DNA of 64,000 nucleotides from the NCBI RefSeq assembly GCF_038443705.2, contig NZ_CP151767.2:3525501-3589500 (forward strand), given 5' to 3'. This DNA comes from Yoonia sp. SS1-5. Lineage in GTDB: Bacteria; Pseudomonadota; Alphaproteobacteria; Rhodobacterales; Rhodobacteraceae. Of this stretch, positions 29,722 through 55,065 are shown one piece after another (position 1 is the first letter of the stretch; the number at the start of each line of letters is the position of its first letter). Under the pieces are notes generated by a model. That model was given only the letters and a program-made list of their open reading frames with translations, had not been told where the DNA came from and ran no database searches. The translations under genes and the position numbers were made by a program.

Positions 29722-29831
29722 TGGCAATCCCTTCGAATCTTGCTTGGCCCCTTGCGGGGTATCGCTGCCAACTGCCATAAGCCGCATGGGCTGTCAAAGG
29801 CTTTGGCAGTGTTAAAAGATGAAAGTTGGAT

Positions 29832-30521
29832 ATGGGCCGTCACACGCTTGAAGGCAACCCCCCGATTGATGTGATCCTGCGCCGATCTGCCCGCGCTAAA
29901 AGGATGTCGTTGCGTCTGTCCCGGCTTGACGGCCGGGTGATCCTGACGCTGCCGCCGCATGCGCGGGATCGCGAGGGGGTAGCCTTTCTGTCCGAGCGCG
30001 AGGCGTGGCTGCGCGAACATCTTGCGGATGTGGCGCCTGTAATCCCCGTTGGACTGGGTGGTGATGTCATGTTCGAGGGGCGATCCCACCCGATCATCGC
30101 TGCGACATCGGGCCGGGCGCGGCTTGAGGCGGGCAATTTTCTGGTGACAGATCCCGCGCGTGCGGCGACTCAGGTAAAGGCGATCCTGCGCATAGCGGCG
30201 CGTGACCGGTTGGCAGCGGCATCCGATGCGTATGCGACACAGCTCGGGCGGCAATATGCCAGATTATCGTTGCGCGATACGCGGTCGCGCTGGGGGTCGT
30301 GTTCCAGTGCAGGGGTCTTGATGTATTCGTGGCGTCTGATCATGGCGCCGCCCGAAATCCTGAACTATGTGGCGGCACATGAGGTGGCGCATCTGGTGGA
30401 AATGAACCATTCCGATGCGTTCTGGGCGGTGGTTGCAGGGCTTGATCCGGACTACCAGCCCAAGCGTCGCTGGCTGCGCGAGAATGGCGATCAATTGCAC
30501 CGATATCAGTTTGATGATTGA
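29832..30521 (+). CDS. YgjP-like zinc metallopeptidase domain protein (DUF45)
   Basis: A 229-residue cytoplasmic protein with the C-terminal metallopeptidase signature 'LNYVAAHEVAHLVEMNHSDAFW': His183, Glu184 and His187 form the HExxH-type site and His193 is the likely third ligand. Upstream is the conserved 'RDTRSRWGSCSSAGVLMYSWRL'. The family (M48-related, known as YgjP/DUF45) is widespread in bacteria and often near restriction or housekeeping genes; the substrate is unknown. The ATG at 29832 is chosen over a TTG two codons upstream. Confidence 0.87.
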   Translation: MGRHTLEGNPPIDVILRRSARAKRMSLRLSRLDGRVILTLPPHARDREGVAFLSEREAWLREHLADVAPVIPVGLGGDVMFEGRSHPIIAATSGRARLEAGNFLVTDPARAATQVKAILRIAARDRLAAASDAYATQLGRQYARLSLRDTRSRWGSCSSAGVLMYSWRLIMAPPEILNYVAAHEVAHLVEMNHSDAFWAVVAGLDPDYQPKRRWLRENGDQLHRYQFDD

Positions 30522-30553: not shown

Positions 30554-31204
30554 ATGATGATACAACCGCGCCCTATTGATCCATCGACCGCGGCGCATGA
30601 GCGCGTCTATCGCGCGTTACGCACCCGGATCATGCATGGCGAAATTGGCCCCGGCGAGGCGTTGACCCTGCGCGGTATTGGCAAGACCTATGATGTGTCC
30701 ATGACCCCGGCGCGCGAAGCAGTGCGCAGGTTAGTCGCAGAAGGGGCGTTGTTCCTGTCATCCTCGGGCCGGGTATCAACGCCAGCCCTGTCAAACGAGC
30801 GTATCGAGGAGCTGGCGACCCTGCGCGCCTTGCTCGAGCCCGAGCTTGCGTCACGTGCGCTGCCGCGTGCCCACTTTGCGCTGATCGAACGGTTGGAGAC
30901 GATAAATCAGGGCGTCAGCCAGATGGTGGCGCGGCATGACGCGTCGGGCTTCATCCGCATGAACCTGGAATTTCACCGCACATTGTATCTGCGCGCGCAG
31001 GCGCCGGCGATGCTGGCGATCACTGAAACCGTCTGGCTGCAACTTGGGCCAACCATGCGCGCCCTCTACGGCCGATTGAACAGGAAAGAGCCGCCGGCCC
31101 ATCACAAGTTGATCCTGTCTGCATTGAAGGCAGGGGATGAACCGGGCTTGCGCCTGGCGGTTCGCGGCGATTCAACCCAAGGCCTGCGCATGCTGCGTGG
31201 TTAA
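30554..31204 (+). CDS. GntR-family regulator (FCD-type)
   Basis: A 216-residue transcription factor with an N-terminal winged helix ('HERVYRALRTRIMHGEIGPGEAL', 'VSMTPAREAVRRLVAEGALF') and an all-helical C-terminal effector domain of the FadR/FCD group, where His residues in 'FHRTLYLRA' and 'HHKLILSALKAGD' usually bind a metal and an organic acid. Either of two adjacent ATGs (30554, 30557) could start it. It lies 32 bp after the metallopeptidase gene and is convergent with the next gene. Its targets are unknown; it is one candidate, among genes elsewhere, for the TGTGATCACA sites in this window, but nothing links it directly. Confidence 0.85.
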   Translation: MMIQPRPIDPSTAAHERVYRALRTRIMHGEIGPGEALTLRGIGKTYDVSMTPAREAVRRLVAEGALFLSSSGRVSTPALSNERIEELATLRALLEPELASRALPRAHFALIERLETINQGVSQMVARHDASGFIRMNLEFHRTLYLRAQAPAMLAITETVWLQLGPTMRALYGRLNRKEPPAHHKLILSALKAGDEPGLRLAVRGDSTQGLRMLRG

Positions 31205-33385: not shown

Positions 33386-34774
33386 TCAGGCGTGAATGGC
33401 ACCGTCACCGCAGGCTAAGGCCGCTTCGCGGACCGCCTCGGAATAGGTCGGATGCGCGTGGCAGGTCCGGGCGAGGTCTTCGGCGGCCGCGCCAAATTCC
33501 ATCGCGACGCAGATTTCATGGATCAGGTCGCCCGCCATTGGCCCAATGATATGGGCGCCAAGAATGCGGTCTGTCGTCGCGTCCACAAGGATCTTGACGA
33601 AACCTTCGCCCGAAAAATTGGCCTTGGCGCGGGCGTTGCCCATGAACGGGAACTTGCCGACCTTATAGGCGCGCCCTTGCTCTTTCAGGGTCTCCTCGGT
33701 CTCGCCGACGCTGCCAACCTCGGGGTGGGTGTAGATCACGCCGGGGATCACGCCGTAATTGACATGCGGGTGCTGTCCGGCAATGCCTTCGGCAACGGCC
33801 ATGCCTTCGTCTTCGGCCTTATGTGCCAGCATGGGGCCGTCAATCGCATCGCCGATGGCATAAATGCCCGACACATTGGTCGCATACCGCGCATCGGTTT
33901 TGATCTGGCCGCGATCGCTCATTTCGACACCCAGCGCATCAAGGCCGAGGCCGTCGGTAAACGGCTTGCGTCCGGTCGCGACCAGGACGGTATCCGCGAC
34001 CAGCGTATGCTCACTTTCGTCCTTGCGCAGCTGATAGGTGACGGTGGCTTTGTTGGATTTGACGGTGACACCCTGAACAGCGGCCCCAAGCGTGAATTTC
34101 AGCCCCTGCTTGGTCAACATCTTCTGAAACTGCCGTGCGATTTCCGCGTCCATGCCGGGGGTGATCCCATCGAGATATTCGATGACGGTCACATCCGATC
34201 CCAACCGTGCATAGACAGACCCAAGTTCCAGCCCGATCACACCGGCGCCGATCACCGCAAGCGTTTTGGGGATCTTTCCCAGTTCAAGCGCCCCGGTGGA
34301 GGTCACGACAGTCTTTTCATCAATCTCAACCCCGGGGAGGGAGGACGGCTCTGACCCGGATGCAATGATGATGTGCTTGGCCTCGTGCACATCGTCGCCA
34401 ACCTTGACCTTGCCGGCCTCGGGGATGGATCCCCAGCCTTTAAGCCAGTCGATCTTGTTTTTCTTGAACAGAAATTCGATGCCGCTGGTATTCTGGCCGA
34501 TTGTCTTGTCCTTGTAGGCTAGCATCTGTTTCCAATCGACCGATTGTGCTTTGCCTTTCAGCCCCATTTCCGCAAAATTGTGCTGCGCCTCATGCAGCAT
34601 ATGGCTTGCATGCAGCATGGCTTTGGACGGGATGCAGCCAACGTTCAGACAGGTGCCACCCAGCGTTTCACGCCCCTCGACGCAGGCGACTTTCATGCCA
34701 AGCTGCGCGCAGCGGATGGCGCAAACATAGCCACCGGGGCCGGCACCGATTACGATGACATCATAGCTGGACAT
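33386..34774 (-). CDS. lpdA: Dihydrolipoyl dehydrogenase (E3)
   Basis: A FAD enzyme of 462 residues that re-oxidises dihydrolipoamide with NAD+ in 2-oxo acid dehydrogenase complexes. Visible are the FAD loop '[16 protein letters not shown]', the redox disulfide '[13 protein letters not shown]' (Cys42, Cys47), the NAD loop '[21 protein letters not shown]', '[22 protein letters not shown]' and the C-terminal catalytic His-Glu in '[16 protein letters not shown]'. The ATG at 34772-34774 has 'GGAGACC' upstream. Being the last gene of the minus-strand run that includes sucA and sucB, it probably serves the 2-oxoglutarate dehydrogenase complex. Confidence 0.94.
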
Positions 34775-34837
34775 GGGGTCTCCTTTGGTCTGCATATTTG
34801 GCAGGTGGGTCTATGCACCATGCCCGGTTTTGGGGTG

Positions 34838-35248
34838 TTAGATCAGGGCCGACAGTAGCATGAGCATTGTCGAGAGGAACCCCACAAACCAGATCAGCGA
34901 ACGCCATGGCGCCCAGCCGAAATAATAGGCGGGGATATAGAGGATACGCGCGGCCAGATAGGTCCAAGCACAGGCAGCCGTCAGCCCGGTATTCTTGTCG
35001 CCAAGGCTGATCACGACGACGGCGATGGTAAACAGGATCAATGCCTCGAAATGGTTGTTCATCGCCCGGATCAGGCGCCCGGTCTTGTCGCTGACCTGTT
35101 CGATGAGCGGCTTGCCCAATCGGCTGGTATCGCGTGGCGACAGGGTTTTCCCGACCCCGACCTCCAGATTGGTGGGGATGGCCATCAGGGTGAATTGAAG
35201 TCCCTGCAAGAGCGCTGCAAGGCAAAGCACGGTAAGTTCGGGGGTCAT
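34838..35248 (-). CDS. MAPEG family membrane protein
   Basis: A 136-residue protein with four hydrophobic helices and the MAPEG features 'RAMNNHFEALILFTIAVVVISL' and 'AARILYIPAYYFGWAPWRSLIWFVGF'. MAPEG proteins are integral membrane glutathione-dependent transferases or peroxidases, but many bacterial members have no known reaction. Its ATG overlaps the stop of the upstream gene (ATGA), so the two are coupled, and lpdA follows after 63 bp. Its place in the suc-lpd run suggests co-transcription rather than shared chemistry. Confidence 0.85.
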   Translation of the reverse strand: MTPELTVLCLAALLQGLQFTLMAIPTNLEVGVGKTLSPRDTSRLGKPLIEQVSDKTGRLIRAMNNHFEALILFTIAVVVISLGDKNTGLTAACAWTYLAARILYIPAYYFGWAPWRSLIWFVGFLSTMLMLLSALI

Positions 35249-35652
35249 GGCGCGCGCAACTCCTGTTTAAGGACGAGATAAGACAGAATGGCCGCGCCGA
35301 TTGCAAACGCAATACCCACCAGCGTTGCGAGCAGTGCAAAGCTACCTGTGGGTGTCCACGCTGCGATCAACATAGGCGTGCTGGTAAAGAGAAACTGCAT
35401 GCCCAAGAGCCATACCACTGCGCCAGAGCGAAGCAACATTGCAAGACAACAGATCGCAAGCGATATTGGCCCGGTCATAACCGAAAACTGAGCGATCCAC
35501 AGTGTCGTGCCTGCCGCATTGGCTGTTAGTTGCGGGATCTGATCCCACACGAACTGCGTCGCACGCGCGGCCCCGATGATCATCAAGGAGAGACAAACCC
35601 GGTAGACCCATTTGGAAACGGCTGTGCGGCGGCTGATATGTTCAGACAAGGA
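35245..35652 (-). CDS. Hypothetical four-helix membrane protein
   Basis: About 135 residues with four predicted membrane helices ('VYRVCLSLMIIGAARATQFVW', 'LWIAQFSVMTGPISLAICCLAM', 'GAVVWLLGMQFLFTSTPMLIAAW', 'FALLATLVGIAFAIGAAILSYLVL'). No family recognised. The TTG at 35650-35652 is chosen because 'GAGGA' lies 7 bases upstream; a GTG at 35685 would add 11 residues. The stop overlaps the MAPEG gene start. It lies about 235 bp downstream of sucB, beyond the palindromic repeat. Confidence 0.6.
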   Translation of the reverse strand, partial: SLSEHISRRTAVSKWVYRVCLSLMIIGAARATQFVWDQIPQLTANAAGTTLWIAQFSVMTGPISLAICCLAMLLRSGAVVWLLGMQFLFTSTPMLIAAWTPTGSFALLATLVGIAFAIGAAILSYLVLKQELRAP

Positions 35653-35784
35653 TGTGTCCTCGTTTTGATGCGGGTGGCGCTGCACGGTTTGGGTTTGATT
35701 TGCGCGGCCATGGCCAAGGGTGATCAGATGGCTATGTGCTAAGGTGGCGGATCAATTCATTGTTTTATGATAGCATTGCGTTTG

Positions 35785-35880
35785 CGGGCATGTCCCGCCC
35801 GGCATCGCCGGGCAGCGCCCGGACCGCCCCCATGGGGAGGGCGCTTCGCACCCACCCCGAGGTCCGGGAACTGCCCTTTT
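35785..35880. repeat. Palindromic intergenic repeat, copy A
   Basis: Downstream of sucB the sequence folds into consecutive hairpins: GCCCGGC / GCCGGGC (35797-35803 and 35807-35813, 3-base loop), then GGGCAGCGCCCGGAC (35810-35824) against GTCCGGGAACTGCCC (35862-35876), which pair with a few mismatches, with a C/G-rich inner hairpin. A diverged copy with the same order of blocks is at 40639-40705. Because it follows sucB on the minus strand it may act as a terminator or message stabiliser as well as being a dispersed repeat. Confidence 0.65.
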
Positions 35881-35887
35881 TGTTGTA

Positions 35888-37078
35888 TTAGAGATCCATC
35901 AACAACCGCCGTGGATCCTCCAGCGCTTCTTTCACCCGCACAAGGAAGGTCACCGCCCCCTTGCCGTCCACGATCCGGTGGTCGTAGGACAGGGCCAGAT
36001 ACATCATGGGGCGGATGACGACTTCGCCGTTGATCGCCATGGGCCGGTCCTGGATTTTGTGCATGCCAAGGATACCCGATTGCGGCGGGTTCAGGATGGG
36101 GGAGGACATCAGCGAGCCGTAGACCCCACCGTTGGAGATCGTGAAGGTCCCACCCTGCATTTCCGCCATACTCAGCTTGCCATCGCGGGCCTTGGCGCCT
36201 TTTTCGGCGATGGCTTTTTCGATGGCGGCGAATGACATCTGGTCAGCGTCGTTGATCACGGGGACGACAAGGCCCGTCGGCGTGCCTGCAGCGATGCCCA
36301 TATTGACGTAGTTTTTGTAGACCACATCGGTGCCGTCAATCTCTGCGTTGACCTCCGGCACTTCGTTCAGGGCATGGATACAGGCCTTGGTGAAGAAAGA
36401 CATGAAGCCCAGTTTCACGCCATGCTTTTTCAGGAAAAGGTCCTTGTATTCGTTGCGCAGGGCCATGACCTCGGTCATGTCGACCTCGTTATAGGTGGTC
36501 AGCATGGCGGCCGTGTTCTGGCTGTCTTTCAGACGCTTGGCGATGGTCTGGCGCAAACGGGTCATCTTGACCCGTTCCTCGCGCGCGGCCTGATCTGCGG
36601 CCACCGGTGCGCGCGGTGCAGCAGCGGGGGCAGGGGCGGCGGCCCCGGACAGCGCGTTCAGCACATCCTCTTTCATCACCCGGCCATCCTTGCCGGTGCC
36701 TTGCACGTCGGTCAGGTTGTTTTCAGCCATCAGTTTCTTGGCGGATGGGGCGTCTTCGACATCCTTGGCAGCTGCTGCGGGGGCAGGGGCGGCCTCTGCC
36801 TTGGGTTCTTCTTTCTTGGCAGCCGGAGCGGGTGCCGCATCACCTTCGGCGATTTGGGCCAGCAGCGCGTCAACGCCAACGGTCTCGCCCTCGGCAGCGA
36901 CAATTTCGGACAAGGTTCCGGCGACGGGGCTTGGCACCTCGACCGTCACTTTGTCGGTTTCCAGTTCACACAGCATTTCGTCCACCGCCACGGCATCGCC
37001 GGGCTGTTTGAACCATGTGGCGACAGTGGCCTCGGTCACGGATTCGCCAAGGGTAGGGACGCGGACTTCGGTGCTCAT
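35888..37078 (-). CDS. sucB: 2-Oxoglutarate dehydrogenase E2 (dihydrolipoamide succinyltransferase)
   Basis: The E2 core of the 2-oxoglutarate dehydrogenase complex, 396 residues. Domains in order: lipoyl domain with the lipoylated lysine in '[14 protein letters not shown]' (Lys43), an Ala/Pro linker, peripheral-subunit-binding domain ('[30 protein letters not shown]'), a second Ala/Pro linker, and the catalytic domain ending in '[15 protein letters not shown]' with the active-site His and Asp. The start overlaps the sucA stop (ATGA). The E1 and E3 partners are sucA and lpdA in the same run. Confidence 0.95.
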
Positions 37079-40035
37079 GACTTGCTTCCTTCGAGTGTCA
37101 GCGCATCATTCACGAGCGCTTCTTGTTGTGCTTTGTGTTGGCTGGCCAGACCCGTCGCAGGCGAGGCTGCGGCGGCGCGTCCGGCGTAATGCGGACGGGT
37201 GTTCTTGGCTTTGATGCGGGTCAGAACCCATTCGATATTGGGCTCCATGAACGACCAGGCGCCCTGGTTCTTGGGTTCTTCCTGACACCAGACCATGTCT
37301 GCGTTCTTGAACCGTTCAAGCTCGTTCACTGCCGATTGGGCGGGGAATGGATAGAACTGTTCGAAGCGCAGGATGTAGATATCCTTGATCCCGCGGTTGT
37401 CGCGTTCTTCCAGCAGGTCGTAATAGACCTTGCCGGAACACATCACGACGCGCTTGATTTTGTCATCGGCCACCAGTTTCGTGTCCGAATTGCCCTGTTG
37501 TGCGTCGTCCCACAGTACCCGGTGGAAAGAGGACCCGGTTGTGAATTCCTCTTTCTTCGAGACGGCCAGTTTGTGCCGCAACAGCGACTTTGGCGTCATC
37601 AGGATCAGTGGTTTGCGGAATGTCCGGTGCAGCTGACGCCGCAAAAGGTGGAAGTAGTTCGCAGGCGTCGTACAGTTGGCCACGATCCAATTGTCCCCGC
37701 CGCACATGGTCAGGAACCGTTCCAGACGGGCCGATGAGTGTTCCGGCCCTTGCCCTTCATACCCGTGGGGCAACAGGCAGACGAGGCCGGACATGCGCAA
37801 CCATTTCGACTCACCTGACGAAATGAACTGGTCGAACATGATCTGCGCGCCATTGGCAAAGTCGCCGAACTGCGCTTCCCACAAGGTCAGCGCGTTGGGT
37901 TCGGCCAGTGAGTAGCCATATTCAAAGCCCAGCACCGCATATTCCGACAGCATGGAGTCGATGACTTCATAATGTGCCTGACCATCGCGGATGTGGTTCA
38001 GCGGGTAGTAGCGGTCTTCGGTTTCCTGATTGATCAGCCCCGAATGACGGTGGCTGAAGGTGCCGCGCGTACAGTCCTGACCGGACAGACGAACGGGGTA
38101 GCCCTCGGTCAGTAGTGACCCGAAGGCGAGCGCTTCGCCCGTTGCCCAGTCAATCCCTTCGCCGGTGTCGAACATCTTGGCTTTCGCATCCAGCAGACGC
38201 CCAACAGTCTTGTGCAGCGGAAAGTTATCCGGAGCCTTTGACAAGGCCTCGCCCACGGCGTTGAAGGTTGCCTCTTCGATTGCGGTGACGCCGCGTTGGT
38301 AATCCTCTTCCTTGCGGTCAAGATGAGACCACTTGCCGTCCAGCCAATCGGCCTTGTTGGGTTTGTAGGACTTACCTGCCTCGAACTCCTCGTTCAGATG
38401 CGCCTGAAACGCGGCTTTCATATCCTCGATCTCGCCTTCGGGGATCAGCCCGTCATTCACGAGCCGCTCGGTGTAGAGGGTCAAGGTTGTCTTTTGCTTC
38501 TTGATCTTCTTGTACATCAAAGGGTTGGTGAACATCGGCTCATCCCCTTCGTTATGTCCAAACCGGCGGTAGCAGATGATATCCAGCACCACGTCCTTGT
38601 GGAACTTCTGGCGGAATTCCGTAGCGACGCGTGCGGCATGAACGACGGCCTCTGGATCGTCGCCGTTGACGTGGAAAATCGGCGCCTCGACCATCAGCGC
38701 GATGTCGGTGGGGTAGGGGCTGGACCGGCTGAAATGCGGGGCCGTGGTGAACCCGATCTGGTTGTTGACCACGATATGCATGGTTCCACCGGTCTTGTGC
38801 CCTTTGAGGCCCGACAGACCAAACCCTTCGGCCACCACGCCTTGCCCTGCAAAGGCCGCGTCACCGTGCAGAAGGATGCCCATCACGCGGGTGCGGTCTT
38901 CGTCATTCTTCTGGTCCTGCTTGGCGCGAACCTTGCCCAGCACAACGGGGTTCACCGCCTCAAGGTGGCTGGGGTTTGCGGTCAATGACAGGTGCACTTC
39001 GTTATCGTCAAACGTGCGGTCGGAGGAGGCGCCGAGGTGGTACTTCACATCGCCTGATCCATCCACGTCTTCGGGTTTGAACGACCCGCCCTGGAATTCG
39101 TTAAAGATCGCCCGGTAGGGTTTTTCCATGACGTTGGCCAGTACCGATAGACGGCCGCGATGGGGCATGCCGATGATGATTTCATCCAGCCCCAGCTGCC
39201 CGCCGCGCTTGATGATCTGCTCCATCGCAGGGATCAGGCTTTCGCCGCCATCAAGGCCGAACCGTTTGGTGCCCATATATTTGACATGCAGGAATTTTTC
39301 GAAGCCTTCAGCCTCGACCAGGCTGTTCAGGATCGCCTTGCGGCCATTCTTGGTGAACGCGATTTCCTTGCCGTAGCCTTCGATCCGTTCTTTCAGCCAG
39401 CCGGCCTCTTCGGGGTTGGAAATATGCATGTATTGCAGGGCGAATGTGCCGCAATATGTCCGCTGCACGATGGCGAGAATTTCGTTCATCGTGGCCATTT
39501 CCAGGCCGAGGACATTGTCGATAAAGATCGGGCGGTCCATGTCGGCGGCGGTAAAGCCGTAGCTGGCCGGGTCAAGTTCCGGGTGCGGCGTGTTTTCGCG
39601 CATGCCCAACGGATCAAGATCAGCGATAAGGTGGCCACGGATGCGGTAAGCGCGGATGATCATCAGCGCGCGGATCGAGTCGAGGACAGCGTGGCGCACT
39701 TGATCCTCGGACAGGTTCACGCCTTTTTCGGCGGCCTTATTCTTGATCTTCTTGCTCGCAACCTCAGGCTCTGCGGCCCATTGCCCATCAAGGGCTGCTG
39801 TCAGGTCGTCATTGGGAACAGGCGGCCAATCCGTACGGGCCCAAGAGGGGCCGGTTGCCTCTGCCTTGGCGTCTTGAGGGGCGTCGCCCAGCGACCGGAA
39901 GAAGGATTGCCACTGTTCGTCCACTGCGCCGGGGTTGTCGGCGTAGCGGGCGTAGAGCTGTTCAATGTATTCCGCGTTGTGGCCTTGCATGAAGGATGAG
40001 GCGTGGAAGATGTCGTTAGGAGAATGGTCGTTCAT
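37075..40035 (-). CDS. sucA: 2-Oxoglutarate dehydrogenase E1
   Basis: Thiamine-diphosphate-dependent decarboxylase subunit of 986 residues that takes 2-oxoglutarate into the TCA cycle. It starts with the E1o N-terminal element '[29 protein letters not shown]', has the ThDP-binding '[15 protein letters not shown]' and '...NNQIGFTT', '[16 protein letters not shown]' and the C-terminal '[17 protein letters not shown]'. The stop overlaps sucB and the start overlaps the DUF805 gene stop, so translation is coupled on both sides. Transcription is likely from the sucC promoter region at 43.3-43.45 kb. Confidence 0.95.
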
Positions 40036-40619
40036 GAGGATGCCTCATTTGGGTTGGGGCCGTATTCCGTGCGGCCTTCTTCGGAGGGGCGAGTGAGAAG
40101 AATGAGAAGGATGAGAGGACAAATCAACCAAACAAGCCAAGAGGCGATGCTTAATATAAAGCCGATGGTTATTGCTAATCCTGCCGATAAGTTGAAAATC
40201 AAATGAATGGATCCGACGGCTAGTAGTGCGGAGGCAGGACCGATCAGGAGCATTGTAAGACCAAACCAACCCGACGAACCGACATCATGCAAGCGGCGAA
40301 CCGTTGCAGCGGTGATGAGGCAATAGAACGCTATAATGATAGTGATCGAAATCATATTCCATTTAACGCTGTATAAATGCCATTCAGTTTGGCGCTCCAA
40401 CTCACGTGTCGTTTCTCCGGTCACCGCGCTCGTCTTTATCACCATAAGTTCCGCAGTTTCCGTGGATAAAATCGTTGCGTGAGGCCAGAGCAAAGCAAAT
40501 GTCACAACCAACAAAAGCCCACCATACCACCAAAACTCTGACCGCGAAGCACGGCCCTTGAATTGAAATGACTTGGCGAGGCAAGTCTTGATGGCGTCGG
40601 CGGGTCCCATCAAAGACAT
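40032..40619 (-). CDS. DUF805 family membrane protein
   Basis: A 195-residue inner-membrane protein with four helices; the N-terminus 'CLAKSFQFKGRASRSEFWWYGGLLLV' is the DUF805 signature, and 'ATVRRLHDVGSSGWFGLTMLL' is the second conserved part. The function of the family is unknown. Unusually, the gene lies inside the suc operon between sucD and sucA and its stop overlaps the sucA start (ATGA). Starts at 40619 or 40610 are possible. The palindromic repeat copy B lies just upstream. Confidence 0.82.
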   Translation of the reverse strand: MSLMGPADAIKTCLAKSFQFKGRASRSEFWWYGGLLLVVTFALLWPHATILSTETAELMVIKTSAVTGETTRELERQTEWHLYSVKWNMISITIIIAFYCLITAATVRRLHDVGSSGWFGLTMLLIGPASALLAVGSIHLIFNLSAGLAITIGFILSIASWLVWLICPLILLILLTRPSEEGRTEYGPNPNEASS

Positions 40620-40638
40620 CCTTCGGCCCGGAGGATAG

Positions 40639-40705
40639 GCCGGGCAGCGTCCGACGCTCTCCAAGGGGCGGCACTTTGCAACCACCCAAGGTCGGGCGCT
40701 ACCCT
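40639..40705. repeat. Palindromic intergenic repeat, copy B
   Basis: GCCGGGCAGCGTCCGAC at 40639-40655 and GTCGGGCGCTACCC at 40691-40704 are imperfect inverted arms around an inner GGGGCGGC...ACC block. Order and sequence of blocks match copy A at 35807-35880. It lies in the 113-bp gap between sucD and the DUF805 gene, within the suc operon. Confidence 0.62.
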
Positions 40706-40732
40706 CAGGTAGGATGCAGCACCGTTTTTCAT

Positions 40733-41614
40733 TTATCCAATCGCTTCCAGCACAGCTTCACCCAAAGTCGCAGGGCTGTCGGCCACGATGATCCCGGCAG
40801 ATTTCATCGCCTCGATCTTGCTTTCTGCATCGCCTTTACCTCCCGCGACAATCGCACCGGCGTGGCCCATACGGCGGCCCGGAGGGGCGGTGCGCCCGGC
40901 GATGAAACCGGCTGTGGGCTTCCAGCGGCCCTTCTTCTTTTGAGCGGTCAGGAATTCGGCGGCCTCTTCTTCGGCGGATCCGCCGATCTCGCCGATCATG
41001 ATCATCGAATGGGTTTCATCGTCGTCCAGGAACATGTCGAGCACGTCGATATGCTCTGTCCCTTTGATCGGGTCGCCACCGATGCCCACCGCCGTAGACT
41101 GGCCGAGACCGGAGTCCGAGGTCTGCTTGACCGCCTCATAGGTCAGCGTACCGGACCGGGACACAACACCGACGGAGCCACGTTTGTGGATGTGGCCGGG
41201 CATGATGCCGATCTTGCAAGCATCAGGTGTGATAATGCCGGGGCAGTTGGGGCCGATCAGGCGGCTGGCGGACCCTTCCAGCGCGCGTTTCACACGCATC
41301 ATGTCCAGCACCGGGATGCCTTCGGTGATGCAGATGATCAGTTCCATCTCGGCATCAATCGCCTCGAGGATCGAATCCGCCGCGAAGGGTGGAGGGACAT
41401 AGATGACCGATGCGTTGGCTTCGGTTTTTGCCTTCGCCTCGTGGACCGAGTTGAAGATCGGCAGGTCGAGATGCGTCTGGCCACCTTTGCCGGGGGTGAC
41501 CCCGCCGACCATTTTGGTGCCATAGGCAATGGCCTGTTCAGAGTGGAACGTGCCTTGCGACCCGGTGAGGCCCTGGCAGATGACTTTGGTGTTTTCGTTT
41601 ACGAGAATGGCCAT
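40733..41614 (-). CDS. sucD: Succinyl-CoA ligase alpha subunit
   Basis: Catalytic alpha subunit (293 aa) of succinyl-CoA synthetase. It begins '[29 protein letters not shown]' (CoA-binding), has 'GGVTPGKGG', '[10 protein letters not shown]' and the phosphorylated-histidine region '[14 protein letters not shown]'. The ATG at 41612-41614 fits all homologues. It is separated from its partner sucC by a lipoprotein gene, an arrangement discussed under findings. Confidence 0.95.
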
Positions 41615-41678
41615 TATGCGGTCCTTCGTTCTAAGTCTGGGGCGCAACGCCTGTTGCGCAATTTATTCTGCTTTTGTG

Positions 41679-42098
41679 TCAACCACTTATGATGGCAAGC
41701 TGATAAGTGCCTTCCCCTGCGCTGTTCCCTATGCCGGTTTGGTGGAGAAGTTCACCTCGTGGATAACCCGTGAATACTGATACAATGCCCGCGAGACCGG
41801 CCCTTTGAGGTGCCCCGTAGCGTTGCTGCAGCGTCCCGCGAACATCGACGTTTTTCGGCGCACGGGCGCGCATTGAGCAAAGCGTTGTGCCATCAGTACG
41901 GCTATCGATTTTGAAAAGAAAAGCGTCATCCGGGTTATCTGCCTTTCCATCCAGGCAAACGGCTTCAAATTCGGCAAGTCCGGCGTCAAGCGGCGTAGAC
42001 GGCAATGTAAGTACCGTCATCGCCTCGCTTTTGGGTTGGGGGCCACACGCTGCCAGGGCCACGAGAAGCATCGTGGTTGCGTGAATTGAGCGGATCAT
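41679..42098 (-). CDS. Small lipoprotein encoded between sucC and sucD
   Basis: A 139-residue predicted lipoprotein: signal '[18 protein letters not shown]' with lipobox ending at Cys18, mature part with two more Cys ('[10 protein letters not shown]', 'GTTLCSMRA') that could pair. No family recognised. The start overlaps the sucC stop (ATGA), so it is translated with sucC; 64 bp separate it from sucD. Its function and its link to the TCA operon are unknown. Confidence 0.7.
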
Positions 42099-43288
42099 CC
42101 CTTTACCGCCTTCACGATCTTCTGCGCCCCATCCTTCAGGTCATCCGCCGCAATCACGTCCACGTCGGAATTGTTGATGATATCCTTGCCCTGTTGCACG
42201 TTTGTGCCTTCCAGGCGAACCACCAGCGGCACTTTCAGGCCGACCTCTTTCACTGCGGCGACTACGCCTTCGGCGATGACGTCGCAGCGCATGATGCCGC
42301 CGAAGATGTTGACGAGGATCCCTTTGACCTGCGGGTCAGAAGTGATGATCTTGAACGCCTCTGTCACCTTTTCCTTGGTGGCACCCCCACCCACGTCGAG
42401 GAAGTTGGCAGGTTCGGCCCCGTAGAGCTTGATGATGTCCATCGTCGCCATGGCCAGACCCGCGCCGTTGACCATGCAGCCAATCTCACCGTCAAGCGCG
42501 ATATAGTTCAGGTCGTATTTGGAGGCAGCGAGTTCTTTGGGGTCTTCTTCCGTCTCGTCCCGCAGGGCCGCCACATCGGCATGGCGGTAGACCGCGTTGC
42601 CGTCGAAAGCGACTTTCGCATCCAGTACCTTCAGGTCGCCCTTGTCCGTCACGATCAACGGGTTGATCTCGAGCATTTCCATGTCTTTTTCGGTGAAGGC
42701 TTTGTAGAGCAGTCCCATCAGTTTGACGCATTGCTTGACCTGATTGCCTTCCAGGCCGAGGGCAAAGGCGACACGGCGGCCGTGATAGGGTTGATAGCCG
42801 GTGGCCGGATCAACCGTGAAATTCAGGATTTTCTCGGGGGTGCTGGCGGCAACTTCTTCAATGTCCATGCCGCCTTCGGTCGAGCAGACAAAGCCAATGC
42901 GGCTGGTTTGGCGATCAACCAGCAGGGCCAGATACATTTCCGTTTCAATGCCAGAGCCGTCTTCGATGTAAATCCGGTTGACCTGCTTGCCTGCCGGACC
43001 GGTCTGATGCGTCACCAATGTGCGCCCCAGCATTTTCTTTGCTTCCTGGGCGGCTTCCTCGACCGACTTGGTCAAGCGCACACCGCCAGCCTCGCCTGCA
43101 TCGGCCTCTTTGAACTTGCCTTTGCCACGGCCGCCTGCATGAATTTGCGCCTTGACCACCCAAAGCGGCCCGTCCAGTTCACCAGCAGCGGTCTTGGCGT
43201 CTTCGGCTTTCAGCACGGCGCGGCCGTCGGATACGGGGGCGCCAAAACTGGCGAGGAGCGCTTTGGCCTGATATTCGTGGATATTCAT
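42095..43288 (-). CDS. sucC: Succinyl-CoA ligase beta subunit
   Basis: Nucleotide-binding beta subunit (397 aa) of succinyl-CoA synthetase, with N-terminal ATP-grasp start '[19 protein letters not shown]', '[29 protein letters not shown]', 'EINPLIVT', '[24 protein letters not shown]' and '[15 protein letters not shown]'. The ATG at 43286-43288 is the family start. It is the first gene of the minus-strand suc operon; tandem TGTGATCACA palindromes lie 101-131 bp upstream. Confidence 0.95.
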
Positions 43289-43388
43289 GAGAGGCATGTC
43301 CAATATGGCTTCGGTTCGGACATCTTAGATCACAGGGGTTCACGGGTTTCTAACGCAAATTCGGGAATTTGGCTGATAATCGAACATT

Positions 43389-43419
43389 TGTGATCACAGT
43401 GGAAAAATGTGTGATCACA
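43389..43419. promoter_or_regulatory. Tandem TGTGATCACA palindromes upstream of sucC
   Basis: Two perfect 10-bp palindromes, at 43389-43398 and 43410-43419, have centres exactly 21 bp apart, so both would face the same side of the helix. They lie between the divergent sucC and glycosyltransferase genes. The same pair with the same 21-bp spacing occurs upstream of sdhC. This looks like a two-dimer operator. In Rhodobacter sphaeroides the GntR-family activator AkgR controls TCA genes; whether it reads this motif is not known to me. Confidence 0.72.
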
Positions 43420-48374: not shown

Positions 48375-48578
48375 ATGAAAATATATCGCTTTTTGACCGA
48401 GGATGATACCTCTGCATTTTGCCACAAGGTATCGGAGGCCCTGTCAAAGGGTTGGGAGCTTTACGGCGATCCGCAATATGCATTTGATCAGGCAAACGGC
48501 GTGATGCGGGCCGGGCAGGCGGTCACTAAAGACGTCAGCGAACCCTATCACAAAGACATGAAGCTGGGTGCGCAATGA
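48375..48578 (+). CDS. DUF1737 small protein
   Basis: A 67-residue protein. The N-terminal half 'YRFLTEDDTSAFCHKVSEALSKGWELYGDPQYAFD' matches DUF1737, a small domain centred on a 'GW-x-L-xG-x-P' motif found in many proteobacteria, often downstream of metabolic genes. Function unknown. Its stop overlaps the mesaconyl-CoA hydratase start (ATGA), and only 3 bp separate it from nnrU, so it belongs to the same operon. Confidence 0.85.
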   Translation: MKIYRFLTEDDTSAFCHKVSEALSKGWELYGDPQYAFDQANGVMRAGQAVTKDVSEPYHKDMKLGAQ

Positions 48579-49600
48579 CCAAAACCAATGCGGGCCGGTT
48601 TTTCGAAGATTATAGCGTTGGCGATGTGATCACACATGCGGTGCCGCGCACGATTTCGGGTGGCGAGCGGGCGATGTACCATGCGCTCTATCCCGCGCGT
48701 GGCGCTCTATATTCATCTGATGCGTTTGCGCAGCGATGCGGCTTGCCCGCTTCACCGGTCGATGATCTTATCACGTTTCATACGGTATTCGGCAAGACGG
48801 TGCCGGATGTCTCACTGAATGCGGTGGCCAATCTGGGCTACGCAGAAGGGCGCTGGCTGGCGGCTGTCTATCCGGGCGATACCCTGACCGCACGGTCAGA
48901 GGTGATCGGGGTCAAGCAGAACTCGAACGGGAAATCCGGTGTCGTCTGGGTCCGCACGACCGGGCGCAATCAGCACGGTGTTGACGTGTTAAGCTATGTG
49001 CGTTGGGTGATGGTCCGCAAACCAGGTGATGGGCCGGCCCCGGAAACTGTTATCCCCGAATTGGCGCGCGCCGTTGCGGCCAGCGACCTGATTGTGCCTG
49101 ACGGGCTGTCCTTTGCGGATTACGACGCCACTTTGGCCGGCGAGCCGCATCGGCTGGGTGACTACAAACTTGGCGAGGTAATCGACCATGTCGATGGGGT
49201 CACTATCGAAGAAGCCGAACATATGCTGGCCACCCGTCTGTGGCAGAATACGGCAAAGGTTCATTTTGACGCCACCCACAGGCCAGACGGAAAACGCCTG
49301 ATCTATGGGGGACACGTTATTTCCATGGCCCGTGCGCTGTCTTTCAACGGGCTTGCGAATGCGCAAATGATTGTTGCGTTGAATGGCGGGGCGCATGCCA
49401 ACCCATGCTTTGCCGGTGATACGATACGGGCCTGGTCAGAGGTGCTGGATATTGCCGAGACACCGGCACCCGGCGTTGGTGCCATAAGGTTGCGGTTGGT
49501 GGCGACCAAAGGCGCCTTAACGGCGTTGCGCGATGATGACGGAAAATATGCGCCTGACGTCTTGCTTGACCTCGATTATTGGGCCTTGATGCCGGTATGA
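48575..49600 (+). CDS. mch: Mesaconyl-CoA hydratase (beta-methylmalyl-CoA dehydratase)
   Basis: A MaoC-like double-hotdog dehydratase of 341 residues that interconverts mesaconyl-C1-CoA and beta-methylmalyl-CoA in the ethylmalonyl-CoA pathway. It has two hydratase halves: the first begins 'RFFEDYSVGDVITHAVPRTIS' and the second 'YKLGEVIDHVDGVTIEEAEHMLATRLWQNTAKVHFDA', followed by 'YGGHVISMARALSFNGL' with the catalytic Asp/His-type residues. Length and sequence agree with the Rhodobacter enzyme. Ccr and Ecm of the same pathway are encoded at 57.4-62.3 kb. A TGTGATCACA motif lies inside its 5' end. Confidence 0.9.
   Translation: MTKTNAGRFFEDYSVGDVITHAVPRTISGGERAMYHALYPARGALYSSDAFAQRCGLPASPVDDLITFHTVFGKTVPDVSLNAVANLGYAEGRWLAAVYPGDTLTARSEVIGVKQNSNGKSGVVWVRTTGRNQHGVDVLSYVRWVMVRKPGDGPAPETVIPELARAVAASDLIVPDGLSFADYDATLAGEPHRLGDYKLGEVIDHVDGVTIEEAEHMLATRLWQNTAKVHFDATHRPDGKRLIYGGHVISMARALSFNGLANAQMIVALNGGAHANPCFAGDTIRAWSEVLDIAETPAPGVGAIRLRLVATKGALTALRDDDGKYAPDVLLDLDYWALMPV
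48625..48634. promoter_or_regulatory. Intragenic TGTGATCACA palindrome in mch
   Basis: A perfect 10-bp copy of the motif found in tandem upstream of sucC and sdhC lies 50 bases inside mch, encoding the Val-Ile-Thr of 'GDVITHA'. There is no second copy 21 bp away. It may be fortuitous or a secondary binding site. Confidence 0.3.
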
Positions 49601-50098: not shown

Positions 50099-50764
50099 AT
50101 GCGTGGCGTTCTTCTGACAGGTATCATCTGCCTTTCTACCCCGGCAGCGGGATGTGATGTCGCGCTGATGTTGGCTGTGGATGTGTCGGGATCTGTTGAT
50201 GGTGCAGAATATCGCATTCAGATGGACGGGCTTGCGCAGGCCCTTGTTGACCCTACGGTCACGGCAGCACTTGTTGCCGGAAACGCACGCCTGGCCTTGA
50301 TGCAGTGGACAGGATCGGGGCGCCAATCGGTGGTGATCCATTGGGTCGAGATCGCCAACGACAACGACGTCGTGGGTTTTGCGACGCAGGTTCAGCAACA
50401 GCCCCGGCTGTGGCGGAATTTTTCAACGGCAATTGGTGAGGCGATGGCGCTTTCGGTTGCCTATTTCGCGCTTGTTCCTGAATGCAAACGGTTCGTCCTG
50501 GATATTTCCGGTGACGGGGAAAACAACGAGGGCCGCGTCCCGCGTGATGTGTGGGATGATCTCGCGACTGCAGATGTCACCGTAAACGCGCTGGTTATCG
50601 AAGAGAGCGTGCCGGGACTGACCGCCTATTTTGAAAGTGACGTCATCACAGGGGTGGATGCATTTGCGGTGACTGCCAATACGTTCAAAGAGTATCCCGA
50701 ACAGATCACGCGAAAGCTGTATCGCGAGTTGACCAAGGCTGTCGCACATCTTGAGGGGCAATAG
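50099..50764 (+). CDS. DUF1194 von Willebrand A-like secreted protein
   Basis: A 221-residue exported protein: signal peptide ('MRGVLLTGIICLSTPAAG'), then a VWA-like domain with the metal-site motif 'LMLAVDVSGSVDGAEY' (Asp-x-Ser-x-Ser), Thr/Asp-containing 'FVLDISGDGENNEG' and 'ADVTVNALVI'. This is the DUF1194 pattern, common in Alphaproteobacteria with unknown binding partner. It lies 79 bp after the preceding gene and ends before the sdh promoter region. Confidence 0.87.
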   Translation: MRGVLLTGIICLSTPAAGCDVALMLAVDVSGSVDGAEYRIQMDGLAQALVDPTVTAALVAGNARLALMQWTGSGRQSVVIHWVEIANDNDVVGFATQVQQQPRLWRNFSTAIGEAMALSVAYFALVPECKRFVLDISGDGENNEGRVPRDVWDDLATADVTVNALVIEESVPGLTAYFESDVITGVDAFAVTANTFKEYPEQITRKLYRELTKAVAHLEGQ

Positions 50765-50793
50765 ATACACAAGCAGATCGGAATGAGCATCAT

Positions 50794-50825
50794 TTGTGAT
50801 CACGCCATTTTATTCTGTGATCACA
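50794..50825. promoter_or_regulatory. Tandem TGTGATCAC(A) palindromes upstream of sdhC
   Basis: TTGTGATCACG (GTGATCAC core at 50796-50803) and TGTGATCACA (50816-50825) have centres exactly 21 bp apart. Both spacing and sequence match the pair in front of sucC. They lie 141-172 bp upstream of sdhC and are the best candidate for its activator or repressor site. Confidence 0.72.
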
Positions 50826-50965
50826 ACTGAGAAAAAGTTGATCCGCCGCGACGATTTTTCACGCGTTAGTCACTTTCGCCTGCGTGACTCTCTGGAATGA
50901 ATAGTGCAGAAAGACGCAAAGGCGCTGCTCTCGCCGGGTAGCAAAAGCCACTGAAGGGAACTGAC

Positions 50966-51349
50966 ATGGCCGACGTGAACAGGGGTAACAGACCCCTCTC
51001 TCCGCATCTGACAATCTATCGCCCGCAACTTACCTCGATGACTTCCATCTTTGTCCGCATCACCGGCAACGCGCTTGTGCTTGCGGCATTGCTGATCGTG
51101 TGGTGGTTCGTGGCAGCGGCATCCGGGCCAGAGGCGTTTGCGCGCGCGAACGGGTTTCTGACCAGCTGGTTTGGCGATCTGGTGCTGTTCGGATCGGTGC
51201 TGGCGCTTTGGTATCACAGCCTTGGCGGTATTCGGCATCTGATCTGGGATAGTGGTCGGATGCTTGATGTCGAGAAATCAGAGATGGCCGGACAGATGAT
51301 GATCGTCGCGTCTGTGTTGCTGACGATCTTTACCGTCATCGTACTTTAG
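50966..51349 (+). CDS. sdhC: Succinate dehydrogenase cytochrome b556 subunit
   Basis: Membrane anchor subunit of 127 residues with three helices; it holds haem b with SdhD and binds quinone. The N-terminal 'NRPLSPHLTIYRPQLTSMTSIFVRITGNALV' is the SdhC signature and the haem-binding His lies in 'LWYHSLGGIRHLIWD' (His84). First gene of the sdh operon, with 'GGGAACTGAC' before the ATG and the tandem palindromes upstream. Confidence 0.95.
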   Translation: MADVNRGNRPLSPHLTIYRPQLTSMTSIFVRITGNALVLAALLIVWWFVAAASGPEAFARANGFLTSWFGDLVLFGSVLALWYHSLGGIRHLIWDSGRMLDVEKSEMAGQMMIVASVLLTIFTVIVL

Positions 51350-51361
51350 AGGACCACAGCA

Positions 51362-51733
51362 ATGGCATTTTTGACAGACCGCAAACGCGCTGTAGGCCTT
51401 GGTTCGGCCAAATCGGGGACGGACCATCATTGGAAAATGATGATCTCCTCTGCCGCGCTGATCATCCTGATCCCGCTTTTCGTGTTCACTTTCGGTATGA
51501 TCCTGGGGTCGCCATATGAAGAGGTTGTGGCCTATTACCAACGTCCATTCCCGGCCGTTGTGGCCATTCTGACAATGCTGGTTGGCTGGTTTCATTTCCG
51601 CAAAGGCGTGCAAACCCTGATCGAGGATTATGTGCATGGCCTGGCACGGAAAATCGCCATTATCGCGATGATCTGCCTGTCTTATTCCGCTGCGGCCTTT
51701 GCGGTTTTCGCAATCGTTCGCATCGCCCTTTAA
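51362..51733 (+). CDS. sdhD: Succinate dehydrogenase membrane anchor subunit
   Basis: Second membrane anchor, 123 residues, three helices. The N-terminal 'KRAVGLGSAKSGTDHHWKMMISSAALIILIPLFVF' and the 'HFRKGVQTLIEDYVHG' segment (with the haem-ligand and quinone-side residues) mark SdhD of Alphaproteobacteria. It follows sdhC after 12 bp with an 'AGAGGA' ribosome site. Confidence 0.94.
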   Translation: MAFLTDRKRAVGLGSAKSGTDHHWKMMISSAALIILIPLFVFTFGMILGSPYEEVVAYYQRPFPAVVAILTMLVGWFHFRKGVQTLIEDYVHGLARKIAIIAMICLSYSAAAFAVFAIVRIAL

Positions 51734-51754
51734 TACCCTCGGAGCATCCTGAAA

Positions 51755-53560
51755 ATGGCAGCATACGACTACGAAACCCACACCTATGATGCAATTGTTG
51801 TCGGGGCTGGCGGCGCCGGTTTGCGTGCAACCCTGGGCCTGGCAGAGCAAGGCTTGCGCACGGCCTGTATCACCAAGGTGTTCCCGACCCGGTCGCACAC
51901 GGTCGCGGCGCAGGGCGGGATTGCGGCCTCATTGTCCAATATGGGTCCCGACCACTGGCAATGGCACATGTATGACACCGTAAAGGGGTCTGACTGGCTG
52001 GGTGATACCGACGCGATGGAGTACCTCGCGCGCGAGGCGCCCAAGGCTGTGTACGAGTTGGAACATTACGGCGTGCCGTTTTCGCGGACGGAAGAGGGCA
52101 AGATCTATCAGCGTCCCTTTGGCGGCCACACAACAGAATTCGGCGAAGGCCCCCCGGTGCAGCGTACCTGCGCCGCTGCCGACCGGACCGGTCACGCGAT
52201 CCTGCACACGCTTTATGGTCAGTCGCTCAAGCAGCAGGCGGAGTTCTATATCGAATATTTCGCGCTTGATCTGATCATGTCGGATGATGGCATCTGCCAG
52301 GGTGTGATCGCCTGGAAACTTGATGACGGCACGATGCATGTCTTTAACGCCAAGACGGTTGTGCTGGCCACAGGTGGTTACGGACGCGCCTATTTCTCGG
52401 CAACGTCTGCGCATACATGTACCGGCGATGGCGGCGGCATGGTCGCGCGTCAGGGGCTGCCTTTGCAGGATATGGAATTCGTGCAATTTCACCCGACCGG
52501 TATCTATGGCGCTGGCTGTCTGATCACAGAAGGTGCGCGCGGCGAAGGCGGTTACCTGACAAATTCCGAGGGCGAGCGTTTCATGGAACGTTATGCACCC
52601 AACTACAAGGATTTGGCCCCACGCGATTATGTGAGCCGCTGCATGACAATGGAAATCCGCGAAGGGCGCGGCGTTGGGGCTGGCGGTGATCACATTCACC
52701 TGAACCTGAACCACCTGCCTGCCGCGGCACTTGCCGAACGTTTGCCCGGCATCTCTGAATCCGCGCGTATCTTTGCGGGCGTGGACGTCACGAAAGAGGC
52801 GATCCCGGTTCTGCCGACCGTTCACTATAACATGGGCGGCATTCCAACGAACTATCATGGTGAGGTTCTGAGTCCGACCAAGGACGATCCGAACGCCGTT
52901 GTGCCGGGTCTGATGGCCGTGGGCGAGGCGGGCTGTGCATCTGTACATGGGGCCAATCGTCTGGGGTCAAATTCCCTGATTGATCTTGTTGTGTTTGGAC
53001 GGGCGGCGGCGATCCGCGCTGGCGAAGTTGTCGACCGCAACGCACCCAACCCGACATTGAACCAGGCATCGGTTGATGCATGCTTTGACCGGTTTGACGG
53101 GCTACGGCACGCAAAAGGCACCGTCGGGACCGCCGAGCTGCGGTTGGAGATGCAAAAGGCGATGCAGGCGGATGCGGCGGTGTTCCGGACGGACAAGACG
53201 CTGGGAGAAGGGGTCGAAAAGATGACCGCGATCGCAGGCAAGATGGATGATCTGTCTGTGACTGATCGCAGCCTTGTCTGGAACAGCGACTTGATGGAGA
53301 CGCTTGAGCTGACAAACCTGATGCCCAATGCGCTGGCCACAATTGTCGGGGCAGAGGCGCGAAAGGAAAGCCGTGGCGCGCATGCGCATGAGGACTACGC
53401 GACCCGCGACGATGAAAACTGGCGTGTTCACACGATCAGCCACATTGACGGCGCCAAGGTTGATCTAAGCTACCGCCCTGTCATCACCGAGGCCCTGACC
53501 ACCGAGGCCGAGGGTGGGATTTCTGATGCAAAGATCGCCCCCAAAGAGAGGACGTTCTGA
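51755..53560 (+). CDS. sdhA: Succinate dehydrogenase flavoprotein subunit
   Basis: FAD-containing catalytic subunit, 601 residues, oxidising succinate to fumarate. It has the dinucleotide loop '[21 protein letters not shown]', the covalent FAD histidine in '[17 protein letters not shown]' (His48), the substrate-site '[25 protein letters not shown]', '[19 protein letters not shown]' and '[19 protein letters not shown]'. The TGA overlaps by one base the ATG of the next gene (TGATG). Confidence 0.96.
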
Positions 53561-53895
53561 TGCGCATCTGGCTTGCCGCCGTTGCTCTTCTTGCCGTTGC
53601 CGCTTGCGCGGAGGTTTCGCAGCAAGGTGACAGATTGGCCCGCGACAGCGCCAAGGCGGTGACAAATGATGTGCTGGCTGCTCAGTTCCCCGGGCAGGAT
53701 GTCACACCGGTGACGGATTGCGTGATTGACAATGCCACCGGCCCCGAAGTGATCGAAATTGCGCGTGCCGCCGTTATTGGCACAACCGCTGATACCACGC
53801 GGCTGGTCCTGGGCATCGCGCAGCGGCGCGAAACCGTTGCATGCATTGCTGAAAAGACGCTGACAGTCGGGAACTTGCTGGGGGCGCTGCAATGA
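53560..53895 (+). CDS. Small lipoprotein encoded in the sdh operon (1)
   Basis: A 111-residue predicted lipoprotein: signal '[16 protein letters not shown]' with lipobox Cys16, then a helix-rich mature part with two further Cys ('TDCVIDNATGPEVIEIARAA', 'ETVACIAEKTL'). It is translationally coupled to sdhA (TGATG) and to the following lipoprotein gene (ATGA). Proteins of this kind are present between sdhA and sdhB in other Rhodobacterales. Function unknown; a role in assembly at the membrane is speculation. Confidence 0.75.
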   Translation: MRIWLAAVALLAVAACAEVSQQGDRLARDSAKAVTNDVLAAQFPGQDVTPVTDCVIDNATGPEVIEIARAAVIGTTADTTRLVLGIAQRRETVACIAEKTLTVGNLLGALQ

Positions 53896-54188
53896 TGTGG
53901 CGCGGTGGTGCCTTTGTGGTAGCGGTGTCGCTTGTCGTTGCTGGCTGTACGCCGCCCACCCCGGAACAGGCGGCCGATCGGTGCGAAGACCGCGCCCGTG
54001 CCGCCCAGGCCCCCGAAGTTGGTGTGACCCTTGGCGCGAACAGCCAGTCCGGCCCTTTCGCCAGCGGCAATATCAGCATCAGCCTTGACCAGATCAGGGG
54101 CCGGGACCCGCTTGAAGTTTATGAAAGCTGTGTGTTCCGCCTGACCGGTGAGCCGCCCGTGCGTCCGCCACGCTTGCGTGCCCTATGA
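53892..54188 (+). CDS. Small lipoprotein encoded in the sdh operon (2)
   Basis: A 98-residue predicted lipoprotein with signal 'MMWRGGAFVVAVSLVVAGC' and lipobox Cys19 followed by 'TPPTPEQAADRCEDRARAAQ'. Two more Cys flank a Gly/Ser-rich central part ('GVTLGANSQSGPFASGNISISL'), and a short 'PLEVYESCVFRLTGEPPVRPP' ends it. It overlaps the previous gene by 4 bp and is 97 bp from sdhB. No family recognised. Confidence 0.72.
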   Translation: MMWRGGAFVVAVSLVVAGCTPPTPEQAADRCEDRARAAQAPEVGVTLGANSQSGPFASGNISISLDQIRGRDPLEVYESCVFRLTGEPPVRPPRLRAL

Positions 54189-54285
54189 GGCGTCTTGCAG
54201 GACAATTTGCCCTCTGTTCCGGTTCAGCCCGGGCCTTATAGTTTGAACGAAATGGCGCAGACCCAGCCGCCAGGAGAGATGATAC

Positions 54286-55065
54286 ATGGTACAACTGACA
54301 CTCCCCAAGAATTCCCGCATGACCGTCGGGAAAACGTGGCCAAAGCCCGAAGGTGCCACCAATCTGCGTAAGGTTCAGATCTATCGCTGGAACCCCGATG
54401 ACGGACAGAACCCGCAGCTTGATACCTATTTCGTTGATATGGATACCTGTGGTCCGATGGTTCTGGACGTGTTGATCAAGATCAAGAACGAACTTGATCC
54501 AACGCTGACATTCCGCCGGTCCTGTCGCGAGGGTATCTGCGGGTCCTGTGCGATGAATATCGACGGGATCAACACGCTGGCCTGTATTTATGGCGTTGAT
54601 GAGATCAAGGGTGATATCAAGATTTACCCCCTGCCGCATATGCCGGTGATCAAGGATCTTATCCCAGACCTGACCCATTTCTATGCGCAGCATGCCTCGA
54701 TCATGCCGTGGCTTGAGACCAAGACAAACCGGCCCGCAAAGGAATGGAAACAGTCGATTGAGGACCGCAAGAAGCTTGATGGTCTTTATGAATGTGTGAT
54801 GTGCGCGTCCTGTTCGACCTCTTGCCCGTCATATTGGTGGAACGGTGACAGATATCTGGGGCCAGCGGCGCTGTTGCATGCCTATCGGTGGATCATCGAC
54901 AGCCGTGATGAGGCAACTGGCGAACGGTTGGACGAACTGGAAGATCCTTTCAAGTTGTATCGCTGTCACACGATCATGAACTGCGCCAAGACCTGCCCCA
55001 AGGGCCTGAACCCCGCCAAGGCGATTGCGCATATCAAAAAGATGATGGTCGAACGGGTCGTCTAA
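54286..55065 (+). CDS. sdhB: Succinate dehydrogenase iron-sulfur subunit
   Basis: Electron-transfer subunit (259 aa) carrying three clusters: the [2Fe-2S] site '[21 protein letters not shown]', the [4Fe-4S] site '[12 protein letters not shown]' and the [3Fe-4S] site '[15 protein letters not shown]'. It passes electrons from the SdhA flavin to the membrane quinone site. 'AGGAGAG' precedes the ATG. Last gene of sdhCDA-lipoprotein-lipoprotein-sdhB; a nested palindrome begins at its stop codon. Confidence 0.96.

Follow-up and report, generated by a model that had tools for sequence, protein, structure and literature searches.

GntR-superfamily proteins are known mainly as repressors. One regulon of this superfamily that bears on the present locus is that of AkgR (RSP_0981) in Rhodobacter sphaeroides, reportedly described by Imam et al. 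in 2015 (mBio). The accessible text of PMC4344238 names RSP_0981 as the predicted regulator of sucCD, sdh and 2-oxoglutarate dehydrogenase, with sucCD numbered RSP_0967-6 and sdh RSP_0974-6; that of PMC6365646 lists GTGATCAC among the binding sites identified for AkgR and terms AkgR an activator.

Two further GntR regulators are comparable, as far as the accessible portions of their sources describe them. Atu1419 of Agrobacterium fabrum, a tetrameric regulator of the VanR type, shares with the present case an FCD domain, 10-bp palindromes and multiple sites in a promoter region, but it is a repressor whose sites lie 109-190 bp apart with DNA looping, and its palindrome is ATGTATACAT (PMC7797058). 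PS417_07240, the GntR protein of the deoxyribonate cluster of Pseudomonas simiae, is 32% identical to AkgR and has the conserved palindrome GTGATCAC upstream, but there it is one site before its own cluster, and the target genes differ from those here (PMC6365646).

We analysed a window, the whole stretch of 64,000 nucleotides, at C2:3525501-3589500 of a 4.47-Mb genome in two contigs. Like the AkgR regulon of R. sphaeroides, it has a regulator orthologous to RSP_0981, the motif GTGATCAC (at all four sites discussed here) and the same target operons, sucCD with 2-oxoglutarate dehydrogenase and sdh, with site pairs before sucC and sdhC. In reader, motif and target operons the locus is a new genomic instance of a known system. 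Distant looped palindromes of the Atu1419 kind were not found at the two promoters, where the sites are 20-21 bp apart in this genome and its relatives. The 20-21-bp tandem, a single site upstream of akgR and a 10.5-bp phasing at sdhC were not met in the literature searched, part of it in partial text and the primary AkgR paper lying outside it; we offer the tandem and the phasing as additions to the AkgR system and do not claim them as unpublished.

Paired sites before sucC and sdhC

The operators and genes concerned are as follows, in window coordinates.

43389..43398, no strand: suc operator, sucC-proximal copy; TGTGATCACA, kept in relatives
43410..43419, no strand: suc operator, sucC-distal copy; TGTGATCACA, kept in relatives
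50795..50804, no strand: sdh operator, sdhC-distal copy; TGTGATCACG, differing from the 10-mer at one base
50816..50825, no strand: sdh operator, sdhC-proximal copy; TGTGATCACA
42095..43288, minus strand: sucC, first gene of the suc operon (Pfam ATP-grasp_2 and Ligase_CoA)
33386..41647, minus strand: rest of the suc cluster, named from order and match to R. sphaeroides rather than from the family library, as are its four genes below
40733..41647, minus strand: sucD
37075..40035, minus strand: sucA
35888..37078, minus strand: sucB
33386..34795, minus strand: lpd
50966..55065, plus strand: sdh operon, sdhC-D-A-B (Pfam for sdhC, sdhA and sdhB; gene order)
50966..51349, plus strand: sdhC (Pfam)
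51362..51733, plus strand: sdhD (named by position)
51755..53560, plus strand: sdhA (Pfam)
54286..55065, plus strand: sdhB (Pfam)
30554..31204, plus strand: akgR orthologue, GntR/FCD regulator (Pfam GntR and FCD; reading frame open from 30518)

Among the metabolic genes the Pfam check covered sucC, mdh, sdhC, sdhA and sdhB, the other names coming from order and R. sphaeroides matches. The suc pair lies between sucC and a divergent glycosyltransferase-like ORF, and mdh sits between sucC and sdhC; the region upstream of mdh has no operator within one mismatch.

Both pairs are real and non-random. The suc pair consists of two exact copies of TGTGATCACA centred at 43393.5 and 43414.5, 21 bp apart, just as the first-pass annotation had described it. 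For the sdh pair that annotation was right about the centres (50799.5 and 50820.5) and the 21-bp spacing but wrong in calling the copies perfect and the two pairs identical, because the sdh copy farther from sdhC reads TGTGATCACG. All four sites keep an unbroken 8-bp core, GTGATCAC. The 10-mer had been judged to occur by chance less than once per 64 kb. The exact TGTGATCACA is seen four times in the window against 0.08 expected (100 shuffles), and a pair with up to three mismatches twice against 0.00 expected in shuffled windows. The fourth perfect 10-mer (48625-48634) falls within ORF 48575-49600, a gene of the MaoC/mesaconyl-CoA-hydratase type.

Two findings had been named in advance as contrary to a dedicated operator, namely that the pair is common in unrelated DNA and that it is not conserved before suc and sdh; neither was obtained. 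Across the whole 4.47 Mb, TGTGATCACA-N11-TGTGATCACA with up to three mismatches occurs only as the suc and sdh pairs. The eight genomic copies of TGTGATCACA comprise three in the two pairs and five inside stop-to-stop ORFs of at least 250 aa. There are 17 TTGTGATCAC sites, of which four belong to the pairs, 11 fall within ORFs 240 aa or longer, and two lie elsewhere, one beside a resolvase-like ORF and one just past a folK-like ORF (labels by eye). We rejected further intergenic regulon members among these 17, as the two sites outside pairs and ORFs look unrelated.

Conservation was followed in several samples. Of 295 family genomes, 267 have an exact GTGATCAC pair whose cores are separated by 6-20 bases, mostly two such pairs per genome; a backward-pattern control matched in one genome. 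The class scan found exact pairs in 14 of 240 genomes, three of which are family members; in the other families of the class this leaves 11 of 237, with mixed spacings, and the control matched in two genomes (27 of the matches in one of them). We also examined 80 named relatives picked through the mdh gene rather than the motif, which gave usable upstream regions for 69 sucC and 63 sdhC genes, to which the window was added; the others were cut or had no N-terminal match. With up to one mismatch per 8-mer core and spacings of 14-28 bp permitted, a pair precedes sucC in 70/70 readable regions (64 at 21 bp, six at 20) and sdhC in 63/64 (59 at 21 bp, four at 20), the exception being L130, which has one site only. 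Exact cores in a 20- or 21-bp pair were present in 68/70 sucC and 60/64 sdhC regions. Within the permitted range no spacing other than 20-21 bp was seen before either gene, apart from irregular sucC sites (20, 18 or 38 bp) in L093. A second set (39 sucC and 35 sdhC regions; five of the 79 loci matched neither gene) gave 34 spacings of 21 bp and five of 20 at sucC, and 32 and three at sdhC. These genomes were chosen for exact pairs, so their spacings count as evidence and the presence of a pair does not; the two sets may share genomes (the SdhC proteins of L127 and L064 are identical).

In the alignment of relatives the information content of the core columns is about 2 bits at both sites. Between the cores the sequence varies and is somewhat richer in AT than the flank (0.59 vs 0.45), and the outer flanks of the suc pair are partly conserved, with TTT before and AAA after. 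That the pairs arose by chance, or serve a non-transcriptional role such as GATC methylation, could be entertained on the ground that the core contains GATC; with zero pairs expected in shuffles, only two in the genome, and position, spacing and part of the flanks kept before the same two genes, conservation contradicts this explanation, which we regard as vanishingly improbable.

Some further sites were noted in passing. An additional exact GTGATCAC is present in seven relatives (L089, L097, L116, L118, L120, L157 and L162), 260-303 bp before sdhC, in the region corresponding to 50400-50795. In a genome of another family (L164:992-1020, G440), an exact 21-bp GTGATCAC pair lies between ORFs that look by eye like a TonB receptor and a GntR/FCD protein; the tandem code may therefore belong to a wider GntR clade. 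In another genome from outside the family (L174, G405) a 24-bp GTGATCAC pair is flanked by an AkgR-like gene (36% identity) on one side and an aldehyde-dehydrogenase-like ORF on the other, with another GTGATCAC upstream of the regulator gene.

The likely reader and a second GntR protein

The GntR protein encoded at 30554-31204 likely reads the pairs, judging from comparison with R. sphaeroides. It has an orthologue in G051 by identity (71-74%) and gene order. We take G051 to be R. sphaeroides 2.4.1, four of the five motif strings in the accessible text of PMC4344238 lying inside the chromosome intervals printed there; the fifth, a chromosome 2 string, is absent from the part of G051 searched. 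The G051 order is lpd-sucB-sucA-sucD-sucC-mdh ... sdhC-D-A .. sdhB-(152 aa)-GntR, which places the orthologue one gene beyond sdhB, where RSP_0981 belongs. Since this order fits the numbering of PMC4344238, we identify the G051 gene with RSP_0981, that is, AkgR. R. sphaeroides (G051) also has exact GTGATCAC pairs, spaced 21 bp, before sucC and sdhC. The first-pass annotation had proposed a dedicated operator of the TCA cycle, bound by two dimers on a single helix face, with AkgR as one possible reader, and the comparative evidence agrees with that proposal. It had also listed the GntR gene at 30554 separately from the AkgR orthologue; we rejected this distinction, the RSP_0981 place in G051 making them one protein.

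Directly before akgR in the window lies a YgjP-like metallopeptidase gene (29826-30521), and in R. sphaeroides the ORF just upstream of the orthologue is 434 aa long. The usual metal ligands of FCD domains are Asp, His, His and His. In the aligned akgR orthologues these look altered by eye, with Asn at the Asp position and Asp near the last His.

A different regulator could read the pairs, and one candidate was a second conserved GntR/FCD protein of the L015 type, encoded in this genome at C2:1188634-1189284. It is present in 264 of the 295 family genomes and follows the pair closely (both in 255, pair alone in 12, protein alone in 9, neither in 19), and at first it was attractive because in three loci (L139, L154 and L158) its gene lies 1.2-6.2 kb from mdh. 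The corresponding table for the AkgR orthologue has 261 genomes with both, 6 with only the pair, 8 with only the protein and 20 with neither, kinship being ignored in both tables. The L015-type protein is absent at E 1e-40 from 12 pair-bearing genomes, all of which have the AkgR orthologue; conversely, six of the 267 pair-bearing genomes (G019, G096, G114, G256, G264 and G273, one scored 100% complete) lack the AkgR orthologue at that threshold, and all six have the L015-type protein. A permissive search of these six found relatives of 35-41% identity without a nearby GTGATCAC in three and nothing at E 1e-15 in the other three. Because each pair-bearing genome lacking one GntR protein has the other, we use co-occurrence as supporting evidence only.

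What set the L015-type protein aside was its position in R. sphaeroides, 2.27 Mb from sdh and not at the place of RSP_0981, together with the sites upstream of the two regulator genes. Among 31 akgR loci (a chosen set, not a random one), 16 have a single exact GTGATCAC within 60 bp upstream, mostly at about -17, distances being approximate and measured from the first aligned residue. None of 23 L015-type loci has GTGATCAC within 60 bp upstream; one of them (L246) has a single GTGATCAC at -591. That a regulator other than AkgR reads the pairs is, on these grounds, highly improbable.

In the window, the 700 bp upstream of akgR contain no site within one mismatch, and we rejected autoregulation in this genome; the upstream site is likewise absent from akgR of the close relative L209 and of R. 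sphaeroides. L224 (G187) has two GTGATCAC sites 13 bp apart upstream of akgR instead of the usual single one. Seven AkgR-like proteins of 35-40% identity were found in other families of the class, and three of their loci (L270, L271 and L273) have GTGATCAC within 350 bp upstream, the other four having none.

Helical phasing at the sdhC promoter

The sdhC promoter contains one further element of interest.

50884..50889, plus strand: GTGACT, candidate -35 element of the sdhC promoter

Its separation from the proximal sdh operator centre is 63.5 bp. In 88 of 95 sdhC promoters with an exact pair, GTGACW occurs exactly once between 30 and 120 bp past the proximal operator centre; it is absent in the other seven. 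Its distances fall into four classes, 51.5-52.5 (5 promoters), 61.5-64.5 (69), 73.5-74.5 (4) and 82.5-84.5 bp (10). The intervals between these classes are empty, and a period of 10.5 bp fits best. GTGACW was chosen by eye in the first set and then counted; the second set showed the same pattern. Of five control hexamers four gave 1-3 matches and one, GTGCAW, gave 22; GTGCAW seems to be part of the same sdhC promoters. R. sphaeroides, checked afterwards, has GTGACW at 62.5 bp. The value of 104.5 obtained for L162, which is outside the exact-pair count, is due to a mismatch in its proximal site.

On a tree of 87 SdhC proteins (of 88, one short SdhC having been dropped) the four classes need eight changes, although many forks are weak. 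A crude null of arbitrary indels, about one third of them in phase within a window fixed after the data were seen, gives about 1e-4 for eight such shifts and about 1e-3 for six. As GTGACW lies about 52, 63, 74 or 84 bp past the pair and never between, the phasing suggests activation from one face of the helix, and we infer that GTGACW is the -35 box of the sdhC promoter.

At the sucC promoter a k-mer count gave no candidate for a phased element. Across relatives the sucC start mostly lies 100-105 or 110-119 bp from the proximal operator (interval 43289-43389 in the window), and these two groups may represent another shift of about one turn.

Proposed mechanism and its meaning

We consider it very probable that the pairs are AkgR operators, read by the protein at 30554-31204 in the following way. 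The protein would bind the palindrome (T)GTGATCAC(A), presumably as a dimer. At sucC, with 2-oxoglutarate dehydrogenase downstream, and at sdhC, two dimers would lie next to each other on the same face of the helix, the 20-21 bp between them being two helical turns; they probably touch or form a tetramer, and binding may be cooperative. The bound pair would activate transcription through contact with RNA polymerase, and at sdhC it would be kept at whole helical turns from the -35-like GTGACW. In the roughly half of the sampled relatives that have it, the single site upstream of akgR, absent here, probably serves negative autoregulation.

Instead of two activating dimers, AkgR might read the pair as one tetramer over both palindromes, or act as a repressor. 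The tetramer is a live alternative because FCD-GntR proteins can be tetramers: Atu1419, by the accessible account in PMC7797058, is both tetramer and repressor, with one 10-bp palindrome per dimer. Its palindromes, however, are separated by 190 and 109 bp and brought together by looping, against 21 bp here, and its sequence similarity to the window protein is weak (E 3.4e-4). AkgR, moreover, is called an activator in PMC6365646, and the sdh pair does not overlap the -35-like element but stands 50-85 bp upstream of it. We therefore hold this alternative to be unlikely.

Beyond two activating dimers, the sign and strength of AkgR action might be set by operator number and helical phase, a two-turn tandem some five to eight turns from the -35-like element activating sdh and a single site at its own gene repressing; in the promoters seen, the pair would have been moved repeatedly by whole turns and never by half. 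This broader proposal we regard as evenly poised between right and wrong.

A motif first seen by eye thus becomes a defined and very small regulon, covering the TCA-cycle passage of 2-oxoglutarate, succinyl-CoA and succinate, and the likely reader of its pairs is encoded in the same window. Whether a GntR protein activates from one face of the helix could readily be tested on the promoters in which the distance between operator and promoter has changed naturally by whole turns.
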